A stretch of 5,932 nt of DNA from Methylobacter sp. GTDB taxonomy: Bacteria; Pseudomonadota; Gammaproteobacteria; Methylococcales; Methylomonadaceae. A program made the position numbers and the translations under genes. The stretch lies in NCBI GenBank assembly GCA_003158415.1, contig PMJA01000266.1:1-5932 (forward strand), in the 5' to 3' direction. Positions 1 through 5,932 of this stretch are shown in pieces. The notes below the pieces were generated by a model. It saw only the letters and a program-made list of their open reading frames with translations, was not told where the DNA came from and searched no databases. Each line of letters begins with the position of its first letter. Position 1 is the stretch's first letter.

Positions 1-362
1 CCTTCTTTGCCTTTCATCATGGCACCGCAAGAATGTTCCAGACCGGGTTTCATTTTGCCGTCTTTCATCATGTCGCCGCATGAGCCTTCGCCACCTTTGG
101 TGGTTGCTCCGGCGGCAGCCGGTTTTTTGTTGCCTGCACACGAGCCTTCCGGCGCTTTAGGTTTAGCCATGCCACCCATCGCCGCGCCGCAGGCCATTTC
201 TGCCGGTTTAGCCGCATCGGCTTCAGCAACCTGCATATAACCGCCCGACAGCTCCGTCATGCCGAATGGATTGGCTTCCGCGTTGGCCGCAGCGGCCGCG
301 AAAGTTGAAATTAAAGCGACGCCCATAGCCGCAGCTAAAGGCGTTTTATTGATTTTTTTCAT
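1..362 (-). CDS. HvfA-like cysteine-repeat RiPP precursor (metal-binding), 3' end outside window
   Basis: The first 120 codons of a minus-strand gene are visible; the stop lies beyond the left edge. The start ATG (362-360) follows GGGAG at a 7-base gap. Residues 1-28 form a Sec signal peptide: MKK start, Ala-rich core, likely cleavage after ANA-28. The mature N-terminus, NPFGMTELSGGYM (31-43), followed by low-complexity Ala/Lys/Gly sequence, matches what I recall of HvfA-family proteins. Cysteines C58, C75, C95 and C112 each sit in an E-x-[S/A]-C unit (EMAC, EGSC, EGSC, EHSC). In known HvfA proteins the EGKCG cysteines are converted to oxazolone/thioamide groups by an MNIO (DUF692) enzyme with a partner protein, giving a copper-binding exported peptide. 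Modification here is inferred: the motif is divergent (Ser or Ala for Lys) and no maturation gene is visible. Alternatives are another bufferin class or an unmodified Cys-rich periplasmic protein. The DUF2282 (BufA1) cysteine pattern is not seen. Confidence 0.75.
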   Translation of the reverse strand, partial: MKKINKTPLAAAMGVALISTFAAAAANAEANPFGMTELSGGYMQVAEADAAKPAEMACGAAMGGMAKPKAPEGSCAGNKKPAAAGATTKGGEGSCGDMMKDGKMKPGLEHSCGAMMKGKE

Positions 363-367
363 ATTGG

Positions 368-372
368 CTCCC
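368..372 (-). promoter_or_regulatory. Ribosome binding site of the HvfA-like gene
   Basis: On the minus strand GGGAG lies 7 bases before the ATG at 362-360. It is a strong Shine-Dalgarno match at good spacing, and it supports this start and the reality of a gene that is otherwise cut by the window edge. Confidence 0.75.
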
Positions 373-418
373 ATTGTTATTATAAATATCCGACCATTAA
401 TACTTATCGAACGGAACT

Positions 419-427
419 ATCATACCA
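419..427 (-). promoter_or_regulatory. Candidate extended -10 promoter for the HvfA-like gene
   Basis: The minus strand reads TGGTATGAT, which fits an extended -10 element (TG-n-TATAAT with one mismatch). No convincing -35 hexamer lies 16-18 bases upstream, which is tolerated for extended -10 promoters. Transcription would begin near position 412 and give a leader of about 50 bases. A perfect TATAAT also occurs on this strand at 384-379, but it would start the transcript right at the Shine-Dalgarno and also lacks a -35. An extracytoplasmic sigma factor promoter is possible for such genes, but I could not recognise one. Confidence 0.3.
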
Positions 428-490
428 AAGATCTTGCACAAACTTGTAGCGGGAAAAACAAACGCCGCCACAAATAGTGCATACGATTCA

Positions 491-522
491 TTTACTTTAC
501 TGCCAGTAGCTTAGGCTATAAT
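491..522 (+). promoter_or_regulatory. Candidate sigma70 promoter of glgX
   Basis: A perfect -10 TATAAT lies at 517-522. The -35 is weak: TTTACT occurs twice in overlap, at 491-496 and 496-501, with spacers of 20 and 15 bases. The start site would be near 529, giving a leader of about 23 bases before the ATG at 552. This is the only good -10 box on this strand in the intergenic region. Confidence 0.55.
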
Positions 523-538
523 GACCGCTGTAAAAATT

Positions 539-543
539 GAGAG
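539..543 (+). promoter_or_regulatory. Ribosome binding site deciding the glgX start
   Basis: GAGAG lies 8 bases before ATG 552. The upstream in-frame TTG at 537 overlaps this element and would sit almost at the predicted transcript start, so ATG 552 is the better start. Confidence 0.6.
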
Positions 544-551
544 AAAATGAT

Positions 552-2639
552 ATGCCGCAAACTTACAAAGTCATGTCTGGGAAACCCTACCCATCGGGGA
601 CTAAATTTAATGCGAAGGGCGTTAATTTTTCCATTTTCAGCCGTCATGCCGAACAGGTAGAGTTGTTATTGTATGAGAGCGCCGATTGCGATGAGCCTTT
701 TCAAATCATACAGCTGCAAAAAGAAATCAACCGGACTTTTTTCTCCTGGCATGTTTATATCAGTAAATTGCCGGCCGGTACCTGGTATACCTGGCGCATG
801 GACGGGGCGGGTTATATCCGTGATTCCGGCTTTCGTTTCGAAAAAGACAAGCATCTGCTTGACCCTTGGGCGCGCGCGATCAGCCAGAAGCGCTGGAACC
901 GTAAAGCGGCCTGTAAGCCCGGCGACAATGGCCGCACAGCCATGCGTAGCATGGTCGTTGACGACAAATACGATTGGGAAGGCGACGCGCCACTGGCTAT
1001 TCGTAGCGAAAAATCAATTATTTATGAATTACATGTCGGCGGATTTACCCGGCATCCTTCGTCAGAAGTAAGCAAACCCGGCACTTTTGCCGGTCTGATT
1101 GAAAAAATCCCTTATCTGCAACAACTGGGCATTACCCATGTCGAGCTGTTGCCGGTCATGGCTTTTGATGAGCAGGATGTGCCCAGAAACACCTACGATC
1201 TTGGCCTGAAAAACTATTGGGGGTACAGTACGCACAGTTTTTTCAGCCCGCATCCGGGATATTGTGTGACGCCTGAACAAGGCACTCATGTTCAGGAGTT
1301 CCGGGATCTGGTCAAGACGCTACACAAGGCCGGTATGGGCGTCATCATGGATGTCGTTTTCAACCATACCTCGGAAGCAGGGGCGGATGGCCCGGTCATT
1401 AATTTCAGAGGCATAGGCGGCAAGTCTTTTTATCATTTGGATCAGTATGATAAAAGCATTTTGCGCGACTACACCGGCTGCGGCAATACGGTAAACGCCA
1501 ACCATCCCTTGGTCGCCCGATTCATTATCAGTTGCCTTGAATACTGGGTCAGGCAAATGCATGTCGACGGTTTTCGCTTTGACCTAGCCAGCGCCATGGC
1601 CAGAGGCGAGCATGGCGAAGTGTTGCAGGATCCTCCTGTACTTTGGGGCATCGAACTGTCAGAACAGTTGGTCAAAACCAAGTTGATTGCCGAAGCCTGG
1701 GATGCCGCAGGACTCTATCAGGTGGGCAGTTTCCCCGGTTACCGATGGGCTGAATGGAATGGACGCTATCGGGATATAGTCCGTCAGTTTGTGCGCGGCG
1801 ATAAGGGCCTGCTGTCCGAGCTTGCCACCCGCATCTGCGGCAGCAGCGATATGTATGAGCATCAGGGGCGGTTGCCTATCAGTAGCGTCAATTTTGTCAC
1901 CTGTCATGATGGCTTTACCCTGCATGATTTATTCAGTTACAACGAAAAACATAATGAGGCCAACGGCGAAGATAGTCGCGACGGATGCAGCAATAATATC
2001 AGTTACAATTGCGGCATAGAGGGCGATACCGACAATGCCGGTATTTTGGAACTGCGTAGAAAACAGGCGAAAAATGTGTTTGCCATTTTGCTGCTCAGCC
2101 AGGGTGTTCCCATGTTGCTGGCGGGCGATGAGGTACTGCACAGTCAGCGCGGCAATAATAATTGTTACTGCCAGGATAACGAATTAAGCTGGATCGACTG
2201 GGGACTAACCCGGCAAAATGCAGATAACCTGCGTTTTGTGCAACTTATGATAGCGCTGCGCAAACGGCATCCGTCTATCATGCGCCGCCGTTTTTTGACC
2301 GGCAAAGACATTGAGGGGAAAAACCGAAAGGATATTTCATGGCATGGCGTCGCGCTTAATCAGCCGTTATGGTTTGACCCGGAAGCGCGGCTGCTGGTTT
2401 TTACCCTGGCGGGCATTGAAGATAACGAAGCCGATTTGCATATCGTCATGAATATGTCGGATGAAATCGCCACCCTGGAACTGCCAGTAATCGACGGTAA
2501 AAAATGGTGCTTGGCTTTAGATACTGCGCTGCCTTCGCCCCAGGACATCATTCCTTTGCCAGACCAAAAACCATTCGGCGAACGGTTCTATGCCGTTAAT
2601 GGTAAAGCGATAGCGGTTTTTGAAAATACCGAATTTTAA
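552..2639 (+). CDS. glgX: Glycogen debranching enzyme GlgX (isoamylase-type, GH13)
   Basis: A cytoplasmic 695-residue enzyme that hydrolyses alpha-1,6 branch linkages in glycogen limit dextrins, releasing short maltooligosaccharides. The N-terminus (about residues 8-100) is a CBM48-type beta domain (PYPSGTKFNAKGVNFSIFS). The GH13 barrel follows, with conserved region I DVVFNHT (267-273), region II GFRFDLA with nucleophile D344, region III IAEAWD with acid/base E381, and region IV VTCHDG with transition-state stabiliser D453. The segment YNEKHNEANGEDSRDG (463-478) is typical of GlgX/TreX, and the C-terminal beta domain occupies roughly the last 100 residues. Length matches the roughly 660-720 residue family, and all catalytic residues are present. 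I prefer GlgX to isoamylase because there is no signal peptide and the motif pattern is GlgX-like. No other glycogen gene is in the window. The ASCH gene starts 22 bases after the stop with no terminator between, so co-transcription is likely. Confidence 0.93.
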   Translation: MPQTYKVMSGKPYPSGTKFNAKGVNFSIFSRHAEQVELLLYESADCDEPFQIIQLQKEINRTFFSWHVYISKLPAGTWYTWRMDGAGYIRDSGFRFEKDKHLLDPWARAISQKRWNRKAACKPGDNGRTAMRSMVVDDKYDWEGDAPLAIRSEKSIIYELHVGGFTRHPSSEVSKPGTFAGLIEKIPYLQQLGITHVELLPVMAFDEQDVPRNTYDLGLKNYWGYSTHSFFSPHPGYCVTPEQGTHVQEFRDLVKTLHKAGMGVIMDVVFNHTSEAGADGPVINFRGIGGKSFYHLDQYDKSILRDYTGCGNTVNANHPLVARFIISCLEYWVRQMHVDGFRFDLASAMARGEHGEVLQDPPVLWGIELSEQLVKTKLIAEAWDAAGLYQVGSFPGYRWAEWNGRYRDIVRQFVRGDKGLLSELATRICGSSDMYEHQGRLPISSVNFVTCHDGFTLHDLFSYNEKHNEANGEDSRDGCSNNISYNCGIEGDTDNAGILELRRKQAKNVFAILLLSQGVPMLLAGDEVLHSQRGNNNCYCQDNELSWIDWGLTRQNADNLRFVQLMIALRKRHPSIMRRRFLTGKDIEGKNRKDISWHGVALNQPLWFDPEARLLVFTLAGIEDNEADLHIVMNMSDEIATLELPVIDGKKWCLALDTALPSPQDIIPLPDQKPFGERFYAVNGKAIAVFENTEF

Positions 2640-2661
2640 TTTAACCCAGATGGAATCAGCA

Positions 2662-2994
2662 ATGGAAACTTACCCCGAAAGAACCTGCTCAATAGACCGT
2701 TTGGTCACTCATCCTAAATTGGTAGCCGGCGTAAAAGCCGGAACGAAAACCCAGCAGCGACGCGATGGCATTTATGGTTTGCCTGGAGAAACGTTTGATT
2801 TGGAAGGCATGGGGTTTGTGGTTACCGGGTTAACGCGTCAGCGTTTGGGTGATATGACCGATGAGCATGCTCAGGCTGAGGGCTATCCCAATCTTGAGAT
2901 GTATAAAGACATCATTTTAAAAATGCATGCAGGGATGGAGTGGAAAGCCGATAGCTTGGTATGGGTGCATACGTTTGCGGCCAAGATGGATTGA
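2662..2994 (+). CDS. Small ASCH-domain protein
   Basis: A soluble protein of 110 residues with an ASCH fold (PUA-like beta barrel expected to bind RNA). Family signature: VKAGTKTQQRR (24-34), the G-x-K-x-x-x-x-R pattern lining the proposed nucleotide- or RNA-binding cleft, then GxPGETFDLEG, the segment RLGDMTDEHAQAEGYPNLEMYKD in two parts around residues 61-83, and the C-terminal WVHTF (101-105). Some ASCH proteins are ribonucleases or help in RNA modification; the substrate here is unknown. The start ATG 2662 has GGA at 2652-2654, 7 bases upstream. In-frame ATGs at 2620 (inside glgX) and 2650 lack a ribosome site and would add residues that do not resemble the family. No transmembrane segment or signal peptide is visible. 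It probably shares the glgX transcript, but a link to glycogen is not shown. Confidence 0.8.
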   Translation: METYPERTCSIDRLVTHPKLVAGVKAGTKTQQRRDGIYGLPGETFDLEGMGFVVTGLTRQRLGDMTDEHAQAEGYPNLEMYKDIILKMHAGMEWKADSLVWVHTFAAKMD

Positions 2995-3005
2995 TTTTCC
3001 GGCTA

Positions 3006-3020
3006 CCCGCTTAAGGCGGG
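3006..3020 (+). other. Stem-loop after the ASCH gene
   Basis: CCCGC (3006-3010) pairs with GCGGG (3016-3020) around a TTAAG loop, with one possible extra T-G pair. There is no T-run after it, so it is not a convincing intrinsic terminator. It could be a processing or stability hairpin between the ASCH and channel genes. Confidence 0.35.
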
Positions 3021-3030
3021 ACAGATAACA

Positions 3031-3044
3031 TCCCTTATAGGGAG
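3031..3044 (+). promoter_or_regulatory. Ribosome binding site of the channel gene, inside a small hairpin
   Basis: AGGGAG (3039-3044) is the Shine-Dalgarno. Its first five bases pair perfectly with TCCCT (3031-3035) around a 3-base loop. The gap to ATG 3046 is only 1 base, while the gap to the in-frame ATG 3055 is 10 bases, so 3055 is the better start. The hairpin could partly mask the ribosome site. Confidence 0.5.
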
Positions 3045-3054
3045 AATGAATAAA

Positions 3055-3738
3055 ATGTCAAATCTCCGTATCGGCAAACATCAGATCGGCCGCTTCCAGT
3101 TCTTGTTATGGTCGCTGATGATGATTATCGGTCTGAGGCCGCTCCTGAGTGTGTGGATAGCCGGGTACATCTGGGCGGATGTGTTCACGGACATATTCTT
3201 TGTCTGCGCGTTGATGTCGGGTCTTTATGCTGTAAGCGGGCAGACCAAGCGGCTCCGCTTTGCCTTGCTGCTGGCCGGTGTCATCATAATTCTGATTCCC
3301 CTCCATTACACTCTGAAAATTCAGGCGCTCGATAGGCTGCAATTGGCGCTGAGCGCGGTTTTTCTCATGCAAATGTTAGTCATGATCTGGATACATATAG
3401 AGCAGGAAGAAGAAGTGACGTCAGACCTGATTATGGCAGCGGCATGTGCTTATATCCTGCTCGGACTGGTATGGGCTAATGCTTATTACCTTGTGGAAAT
3501 CTTGCACCCAGATTCTTTCAAGGCATCGGAAAATATGGGCGATGATATATGGAATTTCTACTACTACAGTTTTGTAACCCTAACCACAGTTGGTTATGGG
3601 GATATAACCGCCCTAACCAAACCTGCGCGGGCGTTGTCCATACTCGAAGCCATCACAGGCCAGCTTTATTTGGCGATTATGATCAGCCGTTTGGTGGGTC
3701 TGCATGCTTCGCAGATCGGAATTAGTAAAAGTAAATAG
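3055..3738 (+). CDS. Potassium channel, six transmembrane segments, TVGYGD filter
   Basis: An inner-membrane protein of 227 residues in the Ion_trans_2 (ion channel) family. Approximate helices: TM1 15-37, TM2 40-60, TM3 67-87, TM4 95-116, TM5 124-149, and TM6 192-216. Between TM5 and TM6 lies the pore loop WNFYYYSFVTLTTVGYGD, with the selectivity filter TVGYGD at 178-183. This filter gives K+ selectivity in characterised channels. TM4 (LQLALSAVFLMQMLVMIWIHI) lacks the regularly spaced Arg/Lys of a voltage sensor, and no RCK/TrkA-N domain follows, since only about 11 residues remain after TM6. An acidic run EQEEEE-like (116-120) joins TM4 to TM5. Four such subunits would be needed for a pore. 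ATG 3046 (230 residues) is an alternative start, but its ribosome site is too close. The gating signal is unknown. The gene is separated from the RND operon by 73 bases and is not obviously functionally linked to it. Confidence 0.88.
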   Translation: MSNLRIGKHQIGRFQFLLWSLMMIIGLRPLLSVWIAGYIWADVFTDIFFVCALMSGLYAVSGQTKRLRFALLLAGVIIILIPLHYTLKIQALDRLQLALSAVFLMQMLVMIWIHIEQEEEVTSDLIMAAACAYILLGLVWANAYYLVEILHPDSFKASENMGDDIWNFYYYSFVTLTTVGYGDITALTKPARALSILEAITGQLYLAIMISRLVGLHASQIGISKSK

Positions 3739-3761
3739 TCGGCAAAAAATCCCCCCCCCGA

Positions 3762-3775
3762 TGTAATCGGTTACA
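3762..3775 (+). promoter_or_regulatory. LacI-type palindromic operator candidate
   Basis: TGTAA and TTACA arms (3762-3766 and 3771-3775) flank TCGG, giving TGTAATCGGTTACA. This fits the general LacI-family form with a central CG and matches the CcpA cre consensus TGWAANCGNTNWCA, although CcpA itself belongs to Firmicutes. It is 37 bases before the adaptor start and overlaps a TACAAT -10-like box at 3772-3777. Regulator identity is unknown, and a TetR-family protein is also possible since these commonly control RND pumps. Confidence 0.35.
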
Positions 3776-3777
3776 AT
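3772..3777 (+). promoter_or_regulatory. Candidate -10 box of the RND operon
   Basis: TACAAT matches the sigma70 -10 hexamer at five of six positions and would start transcription near 3784, about 28 bases before ATG 3812. The matching -35 position falls at the C9 tract (3751-3759) and has no recognisable hexamer, so the promoter is weak or needs an activator. Read-through from the channel gene is an alternative. Confidence 0.3.
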
Positions 3778-3803
3778 CTTCTCCAATTACCATGAATCAT
3801 AGC

Positions 3804-3807
3804 AAGG
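3804..3807 (+). promoter_or_regulatory. Ribosome binding site of the adaptor gene
   Basis: AAGG lies 4 bases before ATG 3812. It is a short element at slightly tight spacing. A 7-codon reading frame (ATG 3792) ends with TGA overlapping this ATG, so translational coupling could help. Confidence 0.4.
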
Positions 3808-3811
3808 TTTT

Positions 3812-5026
3812 ATGAATATTACCCCAAAGCTGACTAAATCCACTAGCCGCCGCACCGGCAAACTCCGAAATACTATCCTTTTTTTCCCGATTATCTTAGC
3901 CTTGTTCATCAGCGGCTGCGAAAAGCCCAAAGAAACGGCTGCGGCAAGCCCGCCCGTTGTGGAAGTCGCCGAAGTGCTACAGCAGGACGTGCCGGTACAA
4001 CAGGAATGGGTGGGTACGCTCGATGGCATGGTCAACGCCCAAATTAACGCGCAGGTGGCAGGCTATCTGATTAAGCAAAATTACAAGGAAGGCGAGTTGG
4101 TCAAAAAAGGCCAGTTGATGTATGAAATTGATCCGCGCACCTTTCAGGCTAATCTGGATCAGGCGAAGGGCAATCTGGCCCGCCAGCAGGCCGTGCTGAA
4201 AACCGCGCTGCTTGATCTGGAGCGCATCAATCGCTTGTTGCCTGAAAAAGCCGTCAGCGTTCGCGACCGGGATAACGCCGTAGGCCGTGAAGCATCGGCG
4301 CGGGCGGAAGTTATGGCCGCCGGTGCCGCCGTGGAATCGGCGCAATTGGCTCTGGGTTTTACCAAAATCACCTCGCCTATAGAGGGTATAGCCGGTATAT
4401 CCAAAGCCCAACTGGGCGATCTGGTCGGCCCCGGGAGTGCCAGCAATGTACTGACCTCTGTATCCCAGATCGAGCCCATCAGGGCTTATCTGGGCTTGAG
4501 CGAGCAGCAATATATGCAATTTGCCAGGGAAAAGGCTGGCCGTGACCAACAACATCATCCTATACCGTTGGAATTGATATTGGTCGACGGCACGATTTAC
4601 CCGCAAGGTGGCACGTTCTATTTCGCCGACCGTCAGGTGGATGTAAAAACCGGAACGATTAAAGTTGCCGTACTGTTTCCTAATCCCGACAAACTACTGC
4701 GTCCAGGCCAATTCGCAAGGATACGCGCAGTGATCAAGACAGAGATCGGTGCGCTGCTGGTGCCGCAACAGGCGGTCACACAATTGCAGACTAAGTACCA
4801 GATAGCGGTCGTCAATGCCGACAATACGGTCGACATCCGCATCGTCACCCCCGGCGAGCGCATAGGATCGCTCTGGATCATCAAGGAAGGACTAAAGCCC
4901 GGTGACCGCGTCATCGTGGAAGGTCTGCAAAAAGTGCGGCCAGGCATGAAGGTTGAACCCAAAGCCGTCGTAAAATCCCAGGAGATTGCGCCACCCGTTG
5001 CGTCATCCGCTAACGCAGCAAGGTAA
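3812..5026 (+). CDS. RND efflux periplasmic adaptor (membrane fusion protein), lipoprotein
   Basis: A 404-residue AcrA/MexA-type adaptor that links the inner-membrane RND pump to an outer-membrane channel. The N-terminus is a lipoprotein signal: basic residues up to R19, hydrophobic core 21-34, lipobox ISGC with lipidated C36 and E37 next. The order is typical. The first half of the lipoyl domain (about 76-110) has INAQVAGYLIKQNYKEGELVKKGQ and ends YEIDPRTF. The alpha-helical hairpin (111-183) is Gln/Ala/Leu/Arg-rich and would contact the outer-membrane channel. The second lipoyl half has TSPIEGIAG (187-195) and GDLVGPG, the beta-barrel starts near IEPIRAYLGLSE (220), and the membrane-proximal domain runs from about 311 to 385. 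Length is normal for the family. It sits 6 bases before the permease gene, forming an operon. Substrate cannot be told from the adaptor; drugs, solvents or other toxic compounds are usual for the family. Confidence 0.92.
   Translation: MNITPKLTKSTSRRTGKLRNTILFFPIILALFISGCEKPKETAAASPPVVEVAEVLQQDVPVQQEWVGTLDGMVNAQINAQVAGYLIKQNYKEGELVKKGQLMYEIDPRTFQANLDQAKGNLARQQAVLKTALLDLERINRLLPEKAVSVRDRDNAVGREASARAEVMAAGAAVESAQLALGFTKITSPIEGIAGISKAQLGDLVGPGSASNVLTSVSQIEPIRAYLGLSEQQYMQFAREKAGRDQQHHPIPLELILVDGTIYPQGGTFYFADRQVDVKTGTIKVAVLFPNPDKLLRPGQFARIRAVIKTEIGALLVPQQAVTQLQTKYQIAVVNADNTVDIRIVTPGERIGSLWIIKEGLKPGDRVIVEGLQKVRPGMKVEPKAVVKSQEIAPPVASSANAAR
5020..5023 (+). promoter_or_regulatory. Ribosome binding site of the RND permease gene
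   Basis: AAGG, inside the last codons of the adaptor gene, lies 9 bases before ATG 5033. Its placement within the upstream gene suggests tightly linked translation of adaptor and pump. Confidence 0.5.
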
Positions 5027-5032
5027 CCTGTC

Positions 5033-5932
5033 ATGGCTAAATTTTTTATCAACCGGCCTATTGTAGCCATGGTGATCGCTATCCTCATGGTTATTATCGG
5101 GCTAGTTTCTATGGCGGGCTTACCCATCGCCCAGTTCCCCAATATCGCTCCGCCGGAAATCCAGGTTCAAACCACTTACACCGGCGCGGATGCGGTCACG
5201 GTGGAGCAGGCGGTCGCCACGCCCATTGAGCAGCAAATGTCCGGCGTGGACAACATGAATTACATGTATTCCATCAACGCCAATAACGGCCAGATGACGT
5301 TGCGTGTCAACTTCGATGTAAAAACCGACCCGAACACCGATCAGGTGCTGACGCAGATGCGCAAGTCCCAAGCCGAATCGCAATTGCCGCAGGATGTGCG
5401 CAATTACGGGGTCAATGTGCAAAAATCCACGGCCTCGCCCTTGGTTATGTTCGCTCTGTATTCGCCCAAAGGCAGTTACGATAACGTTTTCCTCGCCAAC
5501 TACGCTTACATCAACATCAACGACCAGATGACGCGGGTCAAGGGCATCGCCAGCGTGTCGGTGTTCGGTGCGGGGCAATACGCGATGCGCATCTGGGTCA
5601 AGCCGGATCAGCTCGCCAAGCTCAACATCACCATTCCTGAAATCATCAACGCCGTCCAGGCCCAGAATAACGTCAACCCGGCCGGTAAGGTCGGCGGCGA
5701 ACCGGTTCCGCAAGGGCAGGAATTTGCTTACGCCGTCCGCGCCCAAGGCCGTTTACAGACCGAGGAGGAATTCGGCAACATCGTGTTGCGAGCCGACCCG
5801 TCGGGCGCCATCGTGCGTATCAAGGACGTAGGCCGCATCGAACTCGGCGCACAGGCCTATGACATGATGGGACGTTTGAACGGCAAGCCAGCGGCCTTGG
5901 TGGCGCTGTACCAGTTGCCCGGCACCAACGCC
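5033..5932 (+). CDS. RND multidrug efflux permease (HAE1/AcrB type), 3' end outside window
   Basis: An inner-membrane proton-driven pump; the first 300 residues are visible with no stop before the right edge. Related pumps have about 1030-1060 residues, so roughly 70 percent is missing. The start MAKFFINRPI is the family N-terminus and leads into TM1 (about 10-28). Then come LPIAQFPNIAPPEI (30-43), the porter-domain segments GVDNMNYMYS (71-80) and TDPNTDQV (98-105), SVFGAGQYAMRIWVKP (176-191), AQNNVNPAG (210-218) and GGEPVPQGQEF (221-231). The NPAG-GG-EP-P-GQEF pattern is more like MexF/OqxB pumps than E. coli AcrB, judged from memory. The proton-relay Asp residues of TM4 and the Lys of TM10 lie beyond the window, so activity cannot be assessed. 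It pairs with the adaptor 6 bases upstream; the outer-membrane factor is not visible. Confidence 0.92.
   Translation, partial: MAKFFINRPIVAMVIAILMVIIGLVSMAGLPIAQFPNIAPPEIQVQTTYTGADAVTVEQAVATPIEQQMSGVDNMNYMYSINANNGQMTLRVNFDVKTDPNTDQVLTQMRKSQAESQLPQDVRNYGVNVQKSTASPLVMFALYSPKGSYDNVFLANYAYININDQMTRVKGIASVSVFGAGQYAMRIWVKPDQLAKLNITIPEIINAVQAQNNVNPAGKVGGEPVPQGQEFAYAVRAQGRLQTEEEFGNIVLRADPSGAIVRIKDVGRIELGAQAYDMMGRLNGKPAALVALYQLPGTNA

Follow-up and report, generated by a model that had tools for sequence, protein, structure and literature searches.

The closest described systems are HvfA (oxazolin) of nontypeable Haemophilus influenzae and the fontiphorin FonA (Buf_EGKCG/oxazolin; captophorins). According to the excerpts of the source papers, FonBC makes 5-thiooxazoles in EGKCG repeats (PMC12668002), and the product of HvfA has been reassigned as a 5-thiooxazole (PMC13419390, PMC12668002). 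About 2,000 Buf_EGKCG/oxazolin proteins are reported in the excerpted text of PMC12452194, and one type of them has 17-residue repeats. At position 3, FonBC accepted Ala (EAACGEGACG), Arg or Thr in vitro; at position 5 it was limited to Gly and Ala. It modified a two-repeat substrate and left a one-repeat substrate unmodified, and Ser at position 3 is not among the variants listed in the excerpts of that paper (PMC12668002). Neither EGACG nor EGSCG was found in the literature searched; a prior listing in supplementary files is possible. A term search of a 2025 Methylobacter genomics paper (PMC12810054) gave no match for bufferin, RiPP, methanobactin or DUF692.

Here we describe a stretch of 5,932 nucleotides from a Methylobacter MAG (the window). 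It quite likely begins within a truncated HvfA-type RiPP precursor gene of a Methylobacter lineage. The cysteines of the product stand in E-x-[A/S]-C-[G/A] units, and an HvfB-type MNIO acting with an HvfC-type partner would likely turn them into 5-thiooxazoles that bind copper. Judged from sequence comparisons, the product is best read as a thiooxazole metallophore of the hvf type whose core, EG[A/S]CGxMMK, is specific to this lineage.

A precursor gene at a contig end

The window comprises bases 1-5932 of a 9807-bp contig, and its first base is the contig start. The MAG has 3.1 Mb in 425 contigs, is 80% complete and contains a pmoB fragment. A minus-strand ORF starts at ATG 362-360, reads MKKINKTPLAAAMGVALISTFAAAAANA-EANPFGMTELSGGYM... 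and continues beyond the contig edge at base 3. Because the contig starts at window base 1, the precursor gene is truncated (Table 1). A homology search revealed a fuller copy, P0001, a protein of 156 aa; the P0001 cluster has a contig of 10,818 bp. It is 100% identical to the window ORF across 97% of the query. Beyond the cut, P0001 has two further KEGACGD units, and their cysteines, C123 and C139, lie 11 and 16 residues after the preceding ones. The cut falls within the repeat-coding part of the gene, which in a close relative consists of four similar 39-nt copies. Such similar copies make an assembly break there plausible. Two genomes of the genus that gave no precursor match (G022 and G028) likewise have their MNIO gene at a contig end, at distances of 86 and 26 bases.

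Table 1. Positions of the features in the window
Feature	Position	Strand	Basis or remark
HvfA-type RiPP precursor CDS, first 120 codons	3..362	-	3' end lost at contig end
Sec signal peptide (predicted), residues 1-28, ends ANA	279..362	-	by eye; A28 invariant in 80 relatives
Conserved mature start NPFGMTELSGGYM, residues 31-43	234..272	-	P32, F33, G41, Y42, M43 invariant in 80 relatives
Unit 1, EMACG, C58	186..200	-	sequence
Unit 2, EGSCA, C75	135..149	-	sequence
Unit 3, EGSCG then DMMK, C95	75..89	-	sequence
Unit 4, EHSCG then AMMK, C112	24..38	-	sequence
Ribosome-binding site GGGAG	368..372	-	by eye, before ATG 362-360; GGAG conserved in leader alignments
Hairpin in 5' leader (GTTCGAT/GTCGGAT), conserved	388..412	-	leader alignments
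Extended -10-like element TGGTATGAT, conserved	419..427	-	TG[AG]TATGAT in relatives
Small ORF	2620-2994		sub-threshold ASCH, 16.2 bits vs cut-off 21.2
Two-pore-type ion channel gene	3046-3738		Ion_trans_2
RND efflux adaptor and permease	3812-5932		also upstream of the cluster in L051

The original prediction, made from the window alone, placed four cysteines (C58, C75, C95 and C112) in E-x-[S/A]-C units. We found them in EMAC, EGSC, EGSC and EHSC. The predicted spacings of 17, 20 and 17 residues were exact, and the C-G-x-M-M-K stretch said to be common to the third and fourth units reads CGDMMK and CGAMMK. The number of four units holds for the window, but the full protein has six cysteines according to P0001. 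Similarly, the units are spread out as claimed, 11-20 residues apart, although this is partly an effect of the truncation, as the last two spacings in P0001 are 11 and 16. Among the 120 listed of 542 homologues, the E-x-[A/S]-C pattern goes beyond chance: 712 of 721 cysteines have Glu at -3, and Ala or Ser precedes 693. As the proteins are closely related, their cysteines do not count as independent.

Curated models gave little help in classifying the precursor. The comparison of the 120 residues with the HvfA and bufferin families, proposed with the original prediction, gave no model match at E<=1, the HvfA models NF050137 and NF050188 included. P0001 likewise had no match at E<=1 in either NCBIfam or Pfam, and none in Pfam to DUF2282 (PF10048), the mark of Buf1. 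This counts against our explanation. Among the lineage members, 24 of 80 have a match at E<=1 to each of the two HvfA models. In a six-frame search, NF050137 was above its cut-off in none of the 35 genus genomes, whereas the homology search found a precursor in 31 of them; the same model also misses seven of the 16 K-type outgroup genomes. EGKCG itself is not present in P0001; 30 of 81 lineage proteins contain it.

Direct comparisons showed homology to canonical HvfA and Buf_EGKCG/oxazolin members. Aligned by hhalign, A1 and the EGKCG-type A4 reached 99.8% probability (E 5e-30), a value to be weighed with care as the sequences are of low complexity. A profile of the front segment outscored 200 of 200 shuffles for each of 16 K-type precursors, which had been picked by motif. 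A counterpart of the mature-start segment NPFGMTELSGGYM was present in 16 of 16 K-type outgroup precursors, and this segment is a candidate recognition segment for the HvfC-type partner. We claim no fold for the precursor (AlphaFold2 mean pLDDT 46, pTM 0.14).

The cluster in relatives and the upstream region

A genome scan found 107 loci in relatives, and we retained the 80 best. Among these best 80 of 107 loci, an MNIO gene lies directly downstream on the same strand in 78, at 61-188 bp from the precursor stop codon (median 89), and a DUF2063 partner gene follows the MNIO gene in 76. All the misses lie at contig ends (L077 and L130 for the MNIO gene, and additionally L079 and L120 for DUF2063). 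By homology search, the precursor was found in 49 of 61 relatives overall; one match counted among the 31 genus genomes consists of 21 residues only (G011). MNIO (PF05114) is present in 54 of the 61 relatives, including 30 of the 35 genus genomes, and DUF2063 in 55 of the 61.

The predicted neighbours, MNIO and DUF2063, are found beside the gene in relatives, directly after it; the two MNIOs and the one partner scored are of HvfB and HvfC type. The window's MAG contains no MNIO, DUF2063 or DoxX gene, which counts against our explanation. The absence of an MNIO gene from operon and genome had been named as a refutation. Formally it is the case here, a consequence of a contig that breaks off within the precursor gene and of a MAG at 80% completeness; the relatives carry the MNIO. 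The expectation of a DoxX gene in the cluster failed: in 61 genomes, compared by eye, none lies within 40 kb of a precursor match on the same contig, and DoxX was rejected as a cluster gene. The genomes G013 and G031 each carry, at another site, a second MNIO-DUF2063 set, this one with DoxX.

Family scores were obtained for two lineage MNIOs (L056 and L035) and one partner (L035). The two enzymes scored 443 and 436 bits with the NCBIfam HvfB model, above its cut-off of 360. They failed the cut-off of bufferin BufB (271 and 267 bits against 310) and that of MbnB (50.5 and 48.5 bits against 325), and methanobactin was rejected on the latter scores. A search for MbnC was negative in all 61 genomes; the control was equally silent, so absence is not proven. 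The partner scored 318 bits with HvfC (cut-off 142) and has the Pfam domains DUF2063 and NGO1945_C. Its nearest PDB relative is 3dee (E 1.9e-11), and that of the MNIO is 3bww (E 1.5e-71), which is called 72.4% identical to HvfB in the excerpted text of PMC13419390. Across 101 MNIOs, residues H64, H99, E143, D175, H206, H210, D220, H222 and E249 are invariant. At columns T73, H124 and F161 (L056 numbering), the Ala/Ser lineage and the EGKCG grade differ; these may tune the substrate pocket or merely track phylogeny.

With the gene order in relatives and these family scores, the central claim of the original prediction, that the gene encodes a divergent MNIO substrate akin to HvfA whose core motif has changed, gained support. 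Orthologous MNIOs of other Methylococcales are preceded by canonical EGKCG precursors in identical gene order, which supports it further.

Upstream of the gene, TG[AG]TATGAT followed by the hairpin occurs in 44 of 81 upstream regions; a generic sigma-70 scan did not pick the element TGGTATGAT. The hairpin shows G-U exchanges, and longer leaders have a second hairpin. In 25 short leaders, 92.9% of cells pair and the covariation score exceeds all but one of 500 shuffles, but only two pairs vary on both sides, which shuffles reach in 430 of 500. The 17 long leaders selected out of 19 pair in 93.1% of cells, with a covariation that is not above shuffles (112 of 500). The conservation of the hairpin in these alignments is suggestive only, and an Rfam search of the leader matched no known RNA family. 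The leader elements could serve mRNA stabilisation or regulation.

Homology to the upstream regions of relatives stops just before the -10-like element. Beyond it, the window has glgX (428-2639), not nth, and the conserved GGATATTCATTC element is absent. This altered region counts against assuming expression in the window's organism. Either the DNA beside the promoter was rearranged or two pieces were misjoined. In flanks of up to 6 kb, often shorter, glgX, ORF124 and the K-channel gene are near the cluster in none of 80 relatives, and RND genes in one. The latter are upstream of the cluster in L051 (66% and 78% identity) and, by eye, in L037.

The change of the core motif

We compared the residues around cysteines in 80 lineage proteins, namely P0001 and 79 of the best 80 of 107 loci (L077 was left out because its contig ends before a stop codon). 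Of their 650 cysteines, 454 follow Ala or Ser, 85 follow Lys and 111 follow another residue. Comparatively, Lys precedes 95 of 104 cysteines in 16 other Methylococcales and 187 of 205 in 26 class-wide homologues. The latter came from 74 matched genomes of 369, in which 29 loci were read and 26 kept; a wrong ORF near a contig end (L161) and two repeats of L135 and L136 were excluded. There are exceptions on both sides. L156 has Ala or Ser at three of six cysteines, and L153, from the window's own family, has Lys at three of five. In seven lineage loci Lys is at least as frequent as Ala/Ser, and several lineage forms with 12-13 cysteines have other residues before them. The rest of the unit was kept: 535 of 653 lineage cysteines have Glu at -3, and 618 have Gly (513) or Ala (105) at +1, i.e. 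position 5. The median Met content is 11.9% in the lineage, against 5.3% in the other Methylococcales and 3.3% class-wide, the sequences being related. The median net charge was little altered (3.0 against 2.5 and 2.5).

In an MNIO tree of 99 rows, the lineage enzymes form one branch of 78 rows (support 100/99). Outside it are 16 EGKCG-type MNIOs and, on a long branch, five of CKGQ type. It seems from this tree that the lineage clade is nested among EGKCG-type enzymes. Mapped on the tree, the Ala/Ser label needs four changes, with long branches flagged by the program. A single gain of Ala/Ser with partial returns would fit these data, and other histories would be compatible too. Endonuclease III (nth) is upstream in 70 of the lineage's best 80 of 107 loci and also upstream of six K-type precursors (the nth of L136 was tested). 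As Ala/Ser and K-type loci share this neighbour, the motif was probably changed in place.

Five loci (L031-L034 and L148) have MNIOs in a separate clade, 35-40% identical, preceded by CKGQ-rich cysteine proteins. These presumably resemble Buf2.

Possible functions and comparison with known systems

We infer the modification, export, copper binding and role of the product as follows. The HvfC-type partner would hold the conserved NPFGMTEL..GYM segment while the MNIO oxidises each cysteine and links it in a ring to the carbonyl of the residue before it. As judged from the 5-thiooxazole structure, the ring uses a backbone carbonyl, so the side chain before Cys should be replaceable, and Lys could give way to Ala or Ser. 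Sec would carry the peptide into the periplasm, where it would bind Cu(I), for which the added Met-Met pairs are possible extra ligands. There it might buffer copper in an organism that handles much of it for particulate methane monooxygenase. The tolerance of FonBC at positions 3 and 5 favours modification of the lineage units. Its failure on a one-repeat substrate counts against it, as the lineage units are 11-20 residues apart, not 5.

Instead of protecting against an excess of copper, the same peptide might supply or store the metal for particulate methane monooxygenase. This is a possible, though doubtful, alternative. The lineage consists of methanotrophs, the MAG has its pmoB fragment, the raised Met content could suit reversible Cu(I) exchange, and the excerpted text of PMC12538549 is hesitant on a protective role for a related cluster; however, published class members are tied to copper excess in the excerpts of PMC12668002 and PMC12452194, and no uptake gene such as a TonB receptor was noticed in the neighbourhoods that were read. 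It is improbable that modification was lost, leaving an unmodified Cys/Met-rich periplasmic metal binder with the MNIO acting elsewhere or decaying. Lys before Cys is mostly gone, the units are spaced and the HvfA models miss most members. However, MNIO and partner adjoin the precursor in every locus with enough DNA (best 80 of 107), the His/Asp/Glu set of the MNIO is conserved, the HvfB and HvfC cut-offs are passed, the units retain Glu at -3 and Gly/Ala at +1, and FonBC takes Ala at position 3 (excerpts of PMC12668002).

We also think it unlikely that the MNIO installs a different modification or that the product favours another metal. MNIOs are known to install many kinds of modification (excerpts of PMC12452194), and columns T73, H124 and F161 differ from the EGKCG grade, though following phylogeny; but the enzyme is nearest HvfB by every score, and the HvfB product is the reassigned 5-thiooxazole (excerpts of PMC13419390 and PMC12668002). 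The discordant upstream region raises the question of whether the precursor end was misjoined to the glgX contig. Relatives have nth where the window has glgX (70 of the best 80 of 107 loci), and the homology ends just before the -10-like element. Such an artefact would be very improbable, considering that the window's RND pump is also upstream of the cluster in L051 and L037 (the latter by eye).

If the preferred reading, a 5-thiooxazole peptide with an altered core, is correct, the core motif of a copper-RiPP family changed in one lineage without a change in gene order or in the type of enzyme. The role of the residue before Cys would thereby be directly testable. A predicted copper peptide would also be placed across methane oxidisers whose main enzyme requires copper. 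More tentatively, Methylobacter-type methanotrophs might have turned an hvf-type thiooxazole peptide into a copper reservoir that combines thiooxazole and methionine, EG[A/S]CGxMMK, exchanging copper with the particulate methane monooxygenase pathway. In addition to methanobactin, methanotrophs would then have a second copper RiPP system, overlooked by current HvfA models.

Methanobactin (MbnABC) is likewise an MNIO-made copper RiPP of methanotrophs, as is predicted for the lineage product, but the two lineage MNIOs scored are far under the MbnB cut-off, and the precursor has a predicted signal peptide, not a leader. The bufferins Buf1 (DUF2282) and Buf2 have an MNIO with a DUF2063 partner and are exported copper buffers (excerpts of PMC12452194). 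Export and binding are predicted for the lineage, which lacks a DUF2282 match and whose two scored MNIOs are under the BufB cut-off. HvfA and FonA share with it repeated E-x-x-C-G, the gene order A-B-C with an HvfB-type MNIO and an HvfC-type partner, found for the lineage in relatives, and a Sec signal peptide, which for the lineage is a prediction made by eye. They differ in having Lys before Cys and tandem units, whereas the lineage has Ala/Ser and spaced units, is Met-rich (MMK after the unit), has no DoxX near the cluster and is mostly missed by curated HvfA models. The EGKCG-type precursors of other Methylococcales (e.g. L136, L140, L143) mostly carry Lys at -1, unlike the lineage. They share with it the NPF...L..GY segment, in several cases nth upstream, and an orthologous MNIO 62-71% identical to that of L035.
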